44,543 nucleotides of DNA from Pararhodobacter sp. GTDB lineage: Bacteria; Pseudomonadota; Alphaproteobacteria; Rhodobacterales; Rhodobacteraceae. Numbering within the stretch: position 1 is the first letter of the stretch; the number at the start of each line of letters is the position of its first letter. The translations under genes were made by a program, and so were the position numbers. The DNA lies in assembly GCA_020832665.1 (NCBI GenBank), contig JAFIEG010000033.1:1-44543 (forward strand), given 5' to 3'. This document shows, in pieces, positions 16,357 through 19,495 of the stretch. Below the pieces are notes generated by a model. It was not told where the DNA came from. It was given only the letters and a program-made list of their open reading frames with translations, and searched no databases.

Positions 16357-17913
16357 TCAGCCCGCCGATTGCATCAGCGCCGCATTGTCGGCGCGTCCGG
16401 CGAAGAGATGCAGCTTGTTGAGCGCGTTCAGATAGGCCTTGGCCGAGGCCACCACCGTGTCGGTATCCGATGACTGCCCGGTATAGACCCGCCCGTCACG
16501 CGCCAGCCGCACGCTGACCGTGGCCTGGGCATCGGTGCCCTCGGTGACGGCATGCACCTGATACAGCTCCAGCAGCGCGTCATGAGGATACAGCATCATG
16601 ATGGCGTTGAAGGTGGCATCGACCGGCCCGTCGCCGGTGGCGTCGATGCTCTTTTCCTCGCCGCCCACCGCCAGGGTCAGTTCGGCCTCCTGCGGCCCGT
16701 CGGTGCCGCAGACCACGCGCAGGCGCTTGAGTTGCAGGTGATCGTCCTCGCCGCCGGCGACACTTTCCTGCATCAGCGCGATCAAGTCCTCGTCATAGAC
16801 CTCTTTCTTGCGGTCGGCGAGTGCCTTGAAGCGCACGAAGACGTCCTTGAGCTGGTTGTCTCCCAGCTCATAACCCAGCTCGCTGAGCTTGGCACGCAGT
16901 GCCGCGCGGCCCGAATGCTTGCCCATCACCAGGCTGGTCGAGGCCAGGCCAACATCTTCGGGGCGCATGATCTCGAAGGTCTGCGCGTTCTTCAGCATCC
17001 CGTCCTGATGGATGCCCGATTCATGCGCAAAGGCGTTCTTGCCCACCACCGCCTTGTTGTATTGCACCGGAAAGCCCGAAACGGCGGCGACCAACCGGCT
17101 GATTTGCATGATCTTCGTGGTGTCGATGCCCGTGCGCCACGGCATGATGTCGTTGCGCACCTTCAGCGCCATCACCACCTCTTCCAGCGCGGTGTTGCCG
17201 GCGCGTTCGCCCAACCCGTTGATGGTGCACTCGATCTGCCGCGCGCCCGCTTCCACTGCCGCCAGGGAATTGGCCGTCGCCATGCCCAGATCGTTATGGC
17301 AATGCGTGGCGAAGGTAATGGTGTCGGCGCCCGGCACGCGCTCGCGCAGCATGGCGATCAGTTCGGCCGATTCGCGCGGCGCGGTATAGCCCACCGTATC
17401 GGGGATGTTGATGGTGGTGGCGCCGGCCTTGATGGCGGTTTCCACCACCCGGCACAAATAGTCGTGCTCGGTGCGGGTGGCGTCCATCGGCGACCATTGC
17501 ACATTGTCGCACAGGTTGCGCGCATGGGCGACGGTGGCCTGGATGCGCTCGATCATGCCCGCCTGATCCAGCGCGGTGATGTCGCGATGCAGCGGCGAGG
17601 TGCCGATGAAGGTATGGATGCGCGGGCGCCTGGCGTGCTTCACCGCTTCCCAGCAGCGGTCGATATCGGTGGTGCTGGCGCGCGCCAGCCCGCAGATAAC
17701 GGCGTTCTTCGCCTGCTCGGCGATTGCCCTCACCGCCTCGAAATCGCCTTCCGAGGCGATCGGAAAGCCGGCCTCGATGATATCGACGCCCATTTCGTCG
17801 AGCAGCTGGGCGATTTCCAGCTTTTCTTCATGGCTCATGGTGGCGCCGGGGGATTGTTCGCCATCACGCAGCGTGGTGTCGAAAATCAGAACGCGGTCCT
17901 GTTCGGTGGTCAT
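16357..17913 (-). CDS. leuA: 2-isopropylmalate synthase
   Basis: LeuA condenses acetyl-CoA with 2-oxoisovalerate, the first committed step of leucine synthesis. The 518-residue protein has the catalytic TIM barrel with 'DTTLRDGEQSPGATM' (about 12-26), metal ligands in 'FATHCHNDLGMATANS' and 'NGLGERAGNTALEEV'. A linker 'KHSGRAALRAKL' leads to the C-terminal LeuA regulatory domain (about 395-510), where leucine binds for feedback inhibition. The ATG at 17913 has only a weak GTGAGA-type ribosome site. The upstream region encodes a leucine-rich leader peptide and alternative hairpins, indicating control by attenuation in addition to feedback inhibition. A dispersed repeat follows the stop. Confidence 0.96.
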   Translation of the reverse strand: MTTEQDRVLIFDTTLRDGEQSPGATMSHEEKLEIAQLLDEMGVDIIEAGFPIASEGDFEAVRAIAEQAKNAVICGLARASTTDIDRCWEAVKHARRPRIHTFIGTSPLHRDITALDQAGMIERIQATVAHARNLCDNVQWSPMDATRTEHDYLCRVVETAIKAGATTINIPDTVGYTAPRESAELIAMLRERVPGADTITFATHCHNDLGMATANSLAAVEAGARQIECTINGLGERAGNTALEEVVMALKVRNDIMPWRTGIDTTKIMQISRLVAAVSGFPVQYNKAVVGKNAFAHESGIHQDGMLKNAQTFEIMRPEDVGLASTSLVMGKHSGRAALRAKLSELGYELGDNQLKDVFVRFKALADRKKEVYDEDLIALMQESVAGGEDDHLQLKRLRVVCGTDGPQEAELTLAVGGEEKSIDATGDGPVDATFNAIMMLYPHDALLELYQVHAVTEGTDAQATVSVRLARDGRVYTGQSSDTDTVVASAKAYLNALNKLHLFAGRADNAALMQSAG

Positions 17914-17957
17914 GTCTGTCTCACAAGAATTGGTGCCTCGGGTCCCATTCGGGGGCG

Positions 17958-18007
17958 ACGGGCGCTACCTACCTCTGAGCGGTCGCGCCCGTGGGCACGC
18001 TCAGAGG
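17958..18007 (-). promoter_or_regulatory. Mutually exclusive hairpins of a leu attenuator
   Basis: Two perfect inverted repeats interleave. Hairpin A pairs 17998-18007 with 17972-17981 (10 bp; its 5' arm contains the last Leu codon and stop of the leader peptide). Hairpin B pairs 17985-17992 with 17958-17965 (8 bp). Each loop contains an arm of the other, so both cannot form as simple hairpins. A ribosome stalled on the leader Leu codons would cover the 5' arm of A and free B. No U-tract follows, so the output may be Rho-dependent or act on leuA translation. Confidence 0.6.
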
Positions 18008-18111
18008 CATGTAAGGAGAAGCAGACCGCCGCTGACCGACCGCAGCCCATGGCCTGCGGCCACGCGGGGCGCGGAGCAAGCGAAGCAGGTGTGGCGGTGG
18101 TCATCATGCAT
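18001..18111 (-). CDS. Leucine leader peptide of leuA
   Basis: A 36-codon reading frame on the leuA strand ends in 'GGLLLLTCL' and a TGA at 18001, with four consecutive Leu codons (CTG CTT CTC CTT; 18024-18013) and a fifth just before the stop. Two of them are CTT, an infrequent codon in such GC-rich DNA. The stop is 87 bp before leuA. The ATG at 18111 has no ribosome-binding site but stands exactly seven bases after a TATAGT -10 element, so the transcript should begin at or next to the ATG: a leaderless frame, as reported for rhizobial trpL. A shorter version starting at GTG 18063 (20 residues) is possible. The role, sensing charged tRNA-Leu, is inferred from the Leu run, the position and the hairpins. 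Confidence 0.65.
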   Translation of the reverse strand: MHDDHRHTCFACSAPRVAAGHGLRSVSGGLLLLTCL

Positions 18112-18118
18112 GCGCGGA

Positions 18119-18147
18119 ACTATACGGACCGGGCTGGAAAAGAAAAG
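18119..18147 (-). promoter_or_regulatory. Promoter of the leuA leader transcript
   Basis: On the minus strand CTTTTC (18147-18142; 4 of 6 to the alphaproteobacterial CTTGAC) and TATAGT (18124-18119; 5 of 6) are 17 bases apart. Seven bases follow before the leader ATG, placing the predicted start of transcription on its A. Confidence 0.5.
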
Positions 18148-18274: not shown

Positions 18275-19495
18275 ATGATCCAGAGGGCTGCCTTGATCGC
18301 CTGCCTGTGTTGCCTTGCCGGCGCCGCCACGGCGCAGCAGGTCAGCGCGGACGATGTCATCGGGCCGGTCAGAAGCCAAGCGGTTGCTGACTGTCTGCAC
18401 AACACCCCCGAGGCGGATGCGCTGGCCTGTTTCGACCAGTCCGGCGTCACCGCCCCCGCGAGGCGCCTCGCGCAGGTGCTGGCTGAGGAGTCAAGCTTCG
18501 GCATGCCGGCCATTCTTACCGGGTTTCAGGCCGTCGGCGCGGTTGACGTGGCGACGGTCTTCTTTCCCATGCTGGCCAACACCAATGACCAGATCGTGCT
18601 GGTGAACGGCGCCGAGGGCCCGAAGATGGCAGTTGATTTCATGGCCGGCCCCAATGCGCCGCGTACCCCGGAGAACAGCGCGCTCATGGACCGCTACCCC
18701 AATGCCTTCGAATCGGGGCGTGTGACCCTTGCCGCGGTGCGCCGGCTGCCGGATGGTGGGCAGCGGTTCGTGCTGCGCGATGTCGTCACCGATGGCTGCC
18801 GGGCCTGCCCACCCGTGGCGGTGGCGTTGCGTCATGTTGATTTCGCCAATGGCCGGCTGGCTGGTATCCGCGATATCGGTTGGTACCCGCTGGCGGTGTT
18901 CGACCCACAGTTGCGCCGCCAGCGGCTGCGGGCCGGTGATCGGCGGATGCTGCAACAGGCGCTGAACGCTCAAGGCTATGATGCGGGGTCTGTCGATGGT
19001 CAGGTGGGGCCACGAACCCTTGGCGCATTGGCCGATTTCCAGCGCGCGCATTGTCTTTCCGTGGCGCCCCGGGTCACACCGGAGGTGGCTGCTGCTCTCT
19101 CTGCCGCGCTTTCAAGTCTTGATCCGCCGCCCTGCGCGCCCGCGGCTCCATCGGCGCCCGAGTCCGCGCCGGACGCCGATGCGGTCGCGCTTCCGGTGCG
19201 CGATGGCGTCTATGCCGCCATGCCCGAAGGATGCCCGAACCATGACGGGGGCACACGCACCGGTGATGCCGAAATTGCCGCCAACCTGCGGGTAACGCTG
19301 CGCGACGGCCAGTTCCACCAGATGACGCAGGCTTGCCCGATTGTCGCCTATATCGAGGCGGACGGGCAGGGCCGGTTGAGCATGGATTGCGTTTATGGCG
19401 ATACGCCGGTGCTGTACAATTTCGTCATCACCCCGATGACGCGCAACAGTTTTGAACGCAATGGCCAAGTCTACAGCCGCTGCGCCGAGCAATGA
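18275..19495 (+). CDS. Secreted protein with a peptidoglycan-binding domain
   Basis: The product has 406 residues and a clear Sec signal peptide (residues 1-20, cleavage after AATA). AAAGGA nine bases upstream selects ATG 18275 over an in-frame ATG at 18245, which has no site. The N-terminal half (about 25-215) is an unrecognised domain with several Cys residues ('CLHNTPEADALACF', 'DGCRACPPV') that could form disulfides. A PG_binding_1 domain ('RMLQQALNAQGYDAGSVDGQ', then a GALADFQRAH core) lies at about 220-255, followed by a Pro/Ala linker and a C-terminal beta-rich domain with three or four Cys. No catalytic motif is visible. It stands alone on the plus strand, convergent with the cytochrome c peroxidase. 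A periplasmic role at the cell wall is inferred. Confidence 0.8.
   Translation: MIQRAALIACLCCLAGAATAQQVSADDVIGPVRSQAVADCLHNTPEADALACFDQSGVTAPARRLAQVLAEESSFGMPAILTGFQAVGAVDVATVFFPMLANTNDQIVLVNGAEGPKMAVDFMAGPNAPRTPENSALMDRYPNAFESGRVTLAAVRRLPDGGQRFVLRDVVTDGCRACPPVAVALRHVDFANGRLAGIRDIGWYPLAVFDPQLRRQRLRAGDRRMLQQALNAQGYDAGSVDGQVGPRTLGALADFQRAHCLSVAPRVTPEVAAALSAALSSLDPPPCAPAAPSAPESAPDADAVALPVRDGVYAAMPEGCPNHDGGTRTGDAEIAANLRVTLRDGQFHQMTQACPIVAYIEADGQGRLSMDCVYGDTPVLYNFVITPMTRNSFERNGQVYSRCAEQ

Follow-up and report, generated by a model that had tools for sequence, protein, structure and literature searches.

The leader region upstream of leuA

The window (the whole stretch of DNA analysed here, 44,543 nucleotides from Pararhodobacter sp.) carries on its minus strand leuA, the gene for 2-isopropylmalate synthase (16357..17913; 518 aa; 847 bits to NF002087 and 683 bits to TIGR00973). 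The element described here lies directly upstream of leuA, which is presumably the gene that it controls. A divergent neighbor, an open frame on the plus strand that extends to 19495 from a likely start at 18275, encodes a protein (18275–19495) with a peptidoglycan-binding domain (PF01471); the leader sits between this neighbor and leuA. All features given below are on the minus strand.

The leader peptide frame, MHDDHRHTCFACSAPRVAAGHGLRSVSGGLLLLTCL-stop (18001..18111), comprises 36 codons and a stop codon and ends GGLLLLTCL. It is apparently leaderless: the ATG stands seven bases after a –10 box, TATAGT (18119..18124), and these seven bases, TCCGCGC, include no Shine–Dalgarno (SD) sequence. 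The frame, its spacing from TATAGT and the missing ribosome site had all been described in the first-pass annotation of this DNA, and all are present. The –35 region, CTTTTC (18142..18147), is located 17 nt 5' of the –10 box, within a YTTTTC(A/T)TT motif (18147–18139) instead of TTGACA.

The 10-bp hairpin over the leader stop and the interleaved 8-bp helix that the same annotation had listed were also found. In the former, here called helix B, the 5' strand CCTCTGAGCG (17998..18007) covers the leader stop codon and pairs with CGCTCAGAGG (17972..17981). The 5' strand of the latter, helix C, lies inside the loop of helix B (ACGGGCGC, 17985..17992), with its 3' strand further downstream (GCGCCCGT, 17958..17965). 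Both helices are real, as discussed below, but the two-hairpin picture was incomplete: the family has a third helix, which joins the Leu codons to the region where the first gene starts, and this had been overlooked. The best candidate in the window for this base stem, or helix A, pairs UGCUUCUCCU (18014..18023), inside the Leu codons, with GGGA-CCC-GAGGCA (17934..17946), which ends 20 nt 5' of the leuA ATG, at –10.8 kcal/mol.

No Rfam 15 family was matched at its gathering score; four matches of 7.6–16 bits, all far below that level, are attributable to chance. Free folding of the window leader alone was unremarkable (z = –1.49), and the case for the element therefore rests on comparison with its relatives.

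Occurrence and conservation of the leader

A LeuA scan gave 80 loci and, with the window included, 81 leuA upstream regions. A mechanical search (for a Leu-rich frame ending near a stop) found a leader in 68 of these, and a covariance model, R1, matched 11 of the 13 misses at E values of 0.05 or less, some of them weakly, which left L048 and L055 without a match. Three of the 13 (L013, L022 and L046) had escaped the mechanical search owing to a gene that separates the element from leuA. The window DNA was matched in each of the other 17 genomes of its genus, and all 17 contained the leader and the helix B motif. R1 found exactly one match in each of 149 genomes sampled at ≥90% completeness from the order to which the window belongs, to judge from named relatives the Rhodobacterales. 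Of these elements, 80 were fetched: 73 are located directly before leuA and the other seven before a cupin gene followed by leuA.

Among 289 genomes of the class, R1 matched 19, all of them before leuA and 14 of them outside the family of the window. A second model, R2, was built from 63 matches, among them two likely spurious ones (L078 at 478 and L004, which lies on the opposite strand); it matched 84 of the 289 class genomes, and by model alone 66 of 299 genomes from the phylum, 65 of which belong to the class. The 15 newly numbered loci from the R2 class scan (three re-fetches) are all located before a leuA, as are 19 of 20 weak R2 matches that were fetched. The exception, G477, is also the single match outside the class; it has no LeuA within 1 kb and was rejected. 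Because the model scans used strict filters, a genome without a match is not thereby shown to be free of the element. In five loci (L242, L243, L244, L246 and L249), the element precedes a LeuA that is only 25–29% identical to the query; the LeuA of L242 belongs, as a Streptomyces copy does, to the NF002991 type. The leaders in these five loci contain LRLTRP or, in L243, LRLMRP. Sphingomonas (L267) also has the element before a distantly related LeuA, with a leader that contains LRLIRP.

The start of the leader was compared by picking the best –10-like hexamer 5–9 bases before any ATG, blind to the reading frame. In the first comparison, 50 of the 65 sequences passed the score threshold, and the ATG was in frame with the Leu run in all 50, at a spacing of seven bases in 36. 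Shuffled controls reached the threshold in 309 of 3250 cases, spread over the three frames (89, 114 and 106). A later set of 68 sequences gave the same picture: 55 passed the threshold, 54 of them with the ATG in the frame of the Leu run. The frame and its distance from the –10 box are thus conserved. In the 132 of 137 sequences that had an alignable in-frame –10/ATG pair, the base before the ATG was C in 117. The –10 spacing, the C at –1 and the lack of an SD sequence are compatible with transcription beginning on the A of this ATG.

The unusual YTTTTC(A/T)TT is strongly conserved in place of TTGACA in the window and its relatives, with T occupying –35 in 123 of 132 sequences and –34 in 121, and it is possibly an activator site or part of an unusual promoter. 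Codons 6–7 of Rhodobacterales leaders often encode His-Ile, written CATATC in 54 of 65 such pairs, and CATAT occurs exactly at +16 from the leader ATG in 58 of 132 sequences. This is a motif at the nucleotide level, and it is degenerate in the window.

The Leu run is likewise kept in the relatives; its loss there had been named by the first-pass annotation as a result that would count against a leucine leader. The codons used in it are unusual. Over the final eight codons of the 137 leaders, the 675 Leu codons were CTC (34.5%), CTT (31.6%), CTG (20.1%), CTA (12.9%) and TTG (0.9%), while the 1139 Leu codons of 33 leuA genes were CTG (60.8%), CTC (18.4%), TTG (12.7%), CTT (6.8%), TTA (0.8%) and CTA (0.5%). 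The leaders favor Leu codons that are rare in leuA. In the window itself, CTT is absent from leuA and occurs twice in the leader. The leader likely senses leucyl-tRNA.

Helices B and C and the base stem

Helix B is well supported by covariation. Among 61 sequences, 98.7% of cells were paired and compensatory changes were present; none of 500 shuffles was as good in cells paired or in covariation. Both sides had changed in three of the ten pairs, and as many were seen in four of the 500 shuffles. The pair counts for helix C were hampered by misalignment: in the MAFFT alignment, 76.8% of its cells were paired, and for B and C together there were 23 cells with double changes, compared to 25 when the strands were slid by +2. 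We therefore judged helix C by a permutation test and by its geometry. The mean duplex energy with its own partner was –17.5, compared to –15.87 (sd 0.29) with permuted partners, a difference not reached in any of 20,000 permutations (65 sequences). A helix C of at least 6 bp could be formed in 132 of 135 sequences, two further sequences having been excluded since they had no recognised B strand. The covariation that the first-pass annotation had proposed to look for in both stems is thus evident in helix B, whereas helix C is supported by the preference for its own partner.

The same annotation had held that only one of the two hairpins can form. This does not follow from their overlap. For the window, the 10-bp hairpin gives loops of 5, 3 and 6 nt, which become 5, 3 and 4 nt if the hairpin is extended to 12 bp, and the medians over 135 sequences are 7, 2 and 7 nt, with the third loop (L3) ranging from 2 to 24 nt. 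Loops of these lengths would mostly allow B and C to form an H-type pseudoknot, so that the two helices need not exclude each other and could coexist.

In helix A, the Leu codons pair with a stretch before the first gene, often as UCCUUAGC with GCUAAGGA. The two strands have co-varied in Paracoccus, where UUCUUACGCU pairs with AAGCGUAAGAA. The pairing of each leader with its own downstream stretch scored –11.7 in an initial set of 48 sequences, compared to –8.44 (sd 0.35) for permuted partners, and –12.7 in the later set (68 sequences, each sharing under 95% identity with the initial set near the leader stop), compared to –9.49 (sd 0.30); in both cases, none of 20,000 permutations did as well, although these permutation tests, like that of helix C, ignore the phylogeny among the sequences. 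Individually, the base stem reached p ≤ 0.05 in 62 of 130 sequences and in seven of the 15 genus relatives for which it was computed (L083, L084 and L086 were at 0.42 to 0.86), and it is weak in the window, where p = 0.22 is not significant. The pairing of Leu codons with the start region points to a translational output. It counts against this reading that the right strand ends 15–24 nt before the ATG, upstream of the presumed SD sequence, in 23 of 36 sequences with a helix of at least 7 bp.

Ten loci (L203–L209, L013, L022 and L046) have a cupin gene of 117–118 codons, with a PF07883 match in all ten, between the element and leuA, suggesting that a cupin-leuA operon is under the same control there as leuA is elsewhere. 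A partner for helix A was found before the cupin start with p < 0.02 in six of the ten, at p = 0.07 and 0.08 in two, and at about 0.43 in the remaining two. In front of leuA in these operons, the lowest p value was 0.18. The partner lies before the cupin and not before leuA, which matches the prediction for control at the first start codon. L207 and L208 are exceptions, with a stronger pairing before leuA (–11.1 and –12.4) than before the cupin gene (–6.2 and –6.8), neither being significant. On the whole, the base stem follows the start codon of the first gene, which favors control of translation initiation.

Proposed control of leuA and relation to known elements

It is nearly certain that a regulatory element precedes leuA. 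We consider it most probable, at roughly 0.58, that the element is a LEU-type switch in which a ribosome stalled on the Leu codons makes the leuA start accessible to initiating ribosomes. The leader mRNA would begin with the A of the leader ATG and hence be leaderless. With ample leucyl-tRNA, ribosomes would pass the Leu codons and detach at the stop codon; B and C would then fold, possibly as a pseudoknot, and the base of the structure would be closed by the Leu codons pairing just before the first gene, hindering translation initiation of leuA. When leucyl-tRNA is scarce, the ribosome would stall on the Leu codons and mask the left strand of the base stem, leaving the start region of leuA open. 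The first-pass annotation had proposed attenuation of leuA by charged tRNA-Leu through a leaderless upstream frame. The start signals, the selected Leu run, the rare Leu codons and the two conserved helices with their link to leuA fit that proposal; its mutually exclusive helices are unsupported, and it lacked helix A.

Folding with a ribosome mask weakly favors translational control. In nested folding of 130 sequences, masking raised the mean unpaired fraction between –30 and +3 from 0.48 to 0.57, with a rise in 91 sequences and a fall in 16, and that between –15 and +3 from 0.54 to 0.58, with a rise in 61 and a fall in 42; for the window itself, the unpaired fraction of the start region was unchanged. 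A mask at the stop codon opened the start region as much as a mask at the Leu codons, and for this reason the direction of the switch is one that we infer.

The principal alternative is Rho-dependent attenuation, in which the leader ribosome shields or exposes the spacer RNA and the helices steer Rho, which terminates transcription when leucine is ample. The helices come early enough to act during transcription, and there is no intrinsic terminator. Rho sites are rich in C and poor in G. The spacer contains little T beyond 40 nt from the leader stop (33% A, 31% C, 25% G and 11% T), with C slightly above G, but this excess is small and nearly gone in the last stretch (26% vs. 24%), and the composition neither excludes nor demands Rho. 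Termination by Rho would not account for a base stem that goes with whichever gene comes first, and we regard it as unlikely, though it deserves more weight than any of the other alternatives. Classical intrinsic attenuation, with helix C as the terminator and helix B as the antiterminator, would make use of the sequence overlap of B and C, and a ribosome at the stop codon, covering the 5' strand of B, would favor C. Such an attenuator should have a U-tract after the helices; the first-pass annotation had already noted that there is none behind the second hairpin and had taken this to imply Rho or a translational output. We counted T from 26, 32 and 40 nt after the leader stop. From 40 nt to leuA, none of the 130 sequences has an 8-nt window with six T and the longest T run is at most 4; from 32 nt, a single sequence (L047) reaches six T, in a broken run before helix C. 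The lack of a U-tract speaks against a classical intrinsic attenuator, which we consider improbable.

A regulatory protein might instead read the RNA, with the leader peptide being incidental, as was proposed in 2005 for the actinobacterial LEU element in an interpretation of mutational data (PMC1262725). A protein would not need the conserved frame, the start spacing, the Leu run or the unusual Leu codons found here, and this explanation seems slightly less probable still. Least probable of all, in our estimation, is that the leader mainly yields a small trans-acting peptide or RNA, like rnTrpL/peTrpL in Sinorhizobium (PMC7298713), with control in cis being secondary. Besides that precedent, the His-Ile CATATC motif at +16 could be accounted for in this way, but a role in cis is indicated by the base stem and by the association with leuA, and the middle of the peptide looks variable among the later-set peptides that were listed. 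The translational switch remains our preferred reading; by it, a ribosome that stalls on a leaderless peptide may govern translation rather than transcription.

Among known systems, the enterobacterial leuLABCD attenuator has a leader with a run of Leu codons and alternative hairpins, which resemble those described here; in contrast, its leader is preceded by an SD sequence and it ends in an intrinsic terminator with a U-tract. The rhizobial trpL/rnTrpL is also a leaderless leader peptide with regulatory codons before a biosynthesis gene in an alphaproteobacterium, but, as described in PMC7298713, it acts by transcription termination, whereas here there is no terminator and a stem is predicted on the start region. 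Closer in its peptide is leuL1 of Streptomyces lividans, MRFGLLLLSCRGEGL, from another phylum: according to the description in PMC8079986, it precedes leuA, is made from a leaderless transcript, contains GLLLLSC and lacks a typical Rho-independent terminator. Leader peptides before leuA are also described in Corynebacterium (PMC4046766, PMC5784534).

In architecture, the element in the window and its relatives is a LEU-type leader element. The LEU element of Actinobacteria, as characterized by Seliverstov et al. (2005, PMC1262725), shares with it the leader with a Leu run, two helices that could form a pseudoknot, the lack of a terminator and the position before leuA; it also has a base stem that involves the Leu codons, which here is seen over the family and is weak in the window. 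In that account, the base stem is formed by the Leu codons with the SD box, whereas in many Rhodobacterales it lies upstream of the SD sequence. The 2005 description offers no mechanism for the actinobacterial element beyond the proposed RNA-reading protein and deems translation of the leader unlikely to matter; Leu-codon mutations in Streptomyces coelicolor, cited there, do not fit the prediction of classical attenuation (PMC1262725), which counts against our reading as well. Among the papers listed by full-text searches of the open literature, there was no report of a LEU-type element in Alphaproteobacteria (Vitreschak 2004 and Lopatovskaya 2010 fell outside this scope).

We also inspected regions upstream of actinobacterial-type leuA genes from a plasmid collection, picking leaders by eye (a script filter listed only L267 and L268). 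Eight of the records L263–L272 were analysed; L271 was left out, and L269 had neither a leader by eye nor a model match. The leuA-like genes on Streptomyces plasmids (L261 and L262) likewise had no model match. A short Leu leader precedes leuA in Nonomuraea (MTSYGRLLLGRRGGA), Nocardia (MQRALLLGRRDGV), Microbacterium (MQFGLLLLSCRDESSD) and two Tsukamurella loci, in each case with a hairpin of 11–16 bp and a candidate match of 6–8 bp from its loop to a downstream stretch. The leader stop lies in the helix B loop in these five loci, unlike here, where it lies in the 5' strand of helix B, and the leuA of the window is of another enzyme type than NF002991. R2, built from alphaproteobacteria only, matched two of the five at the right place (Microbacterium, E = 2.8e-5, and Nonomuraea, E = 0.034; L263 and L265) and missed L264, L268 and L270 even at E = 10. 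Comparable candidate layouts are seen in Sinorhizobium meliloti and in the betaproteobacterium Cupriavidus, where the candidate match between Leu codons and SD sequence is 11 bp long. On the Cupriavidus metallidurans megaplasmid (L272), the Leu-leader letters CTTCCTCGCTA are complementary to TAGCGAGGAAG, which ends 10 nt before the leuA ATG. On eight fetched loci that do not belong to the core set, a permutation test of helix A could not tell own partners (–12.8) from permuted ones (–13.4), and for this reason the stem in Actinobacteria rests on PMC1262725.

Tentatively, these elements could all be forms of a single ancient or horizontally spread one, a leaderless Leu leader whose Leu codons double as the anti-Shine–Dalgarno strand of a pseudoknotted translational switch, serving either enzyme type of leuA in Actinobacteria and Alphaproteobacteria and, among Betaproteobacteria, in some at least; we hold this broader view to be possible, with the odds somewhat against it. 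With the leader frame, its start spacing and its codon choice plainly conserved in tractable bacteria, the role of translation of the LEU leader becomes directly testable.
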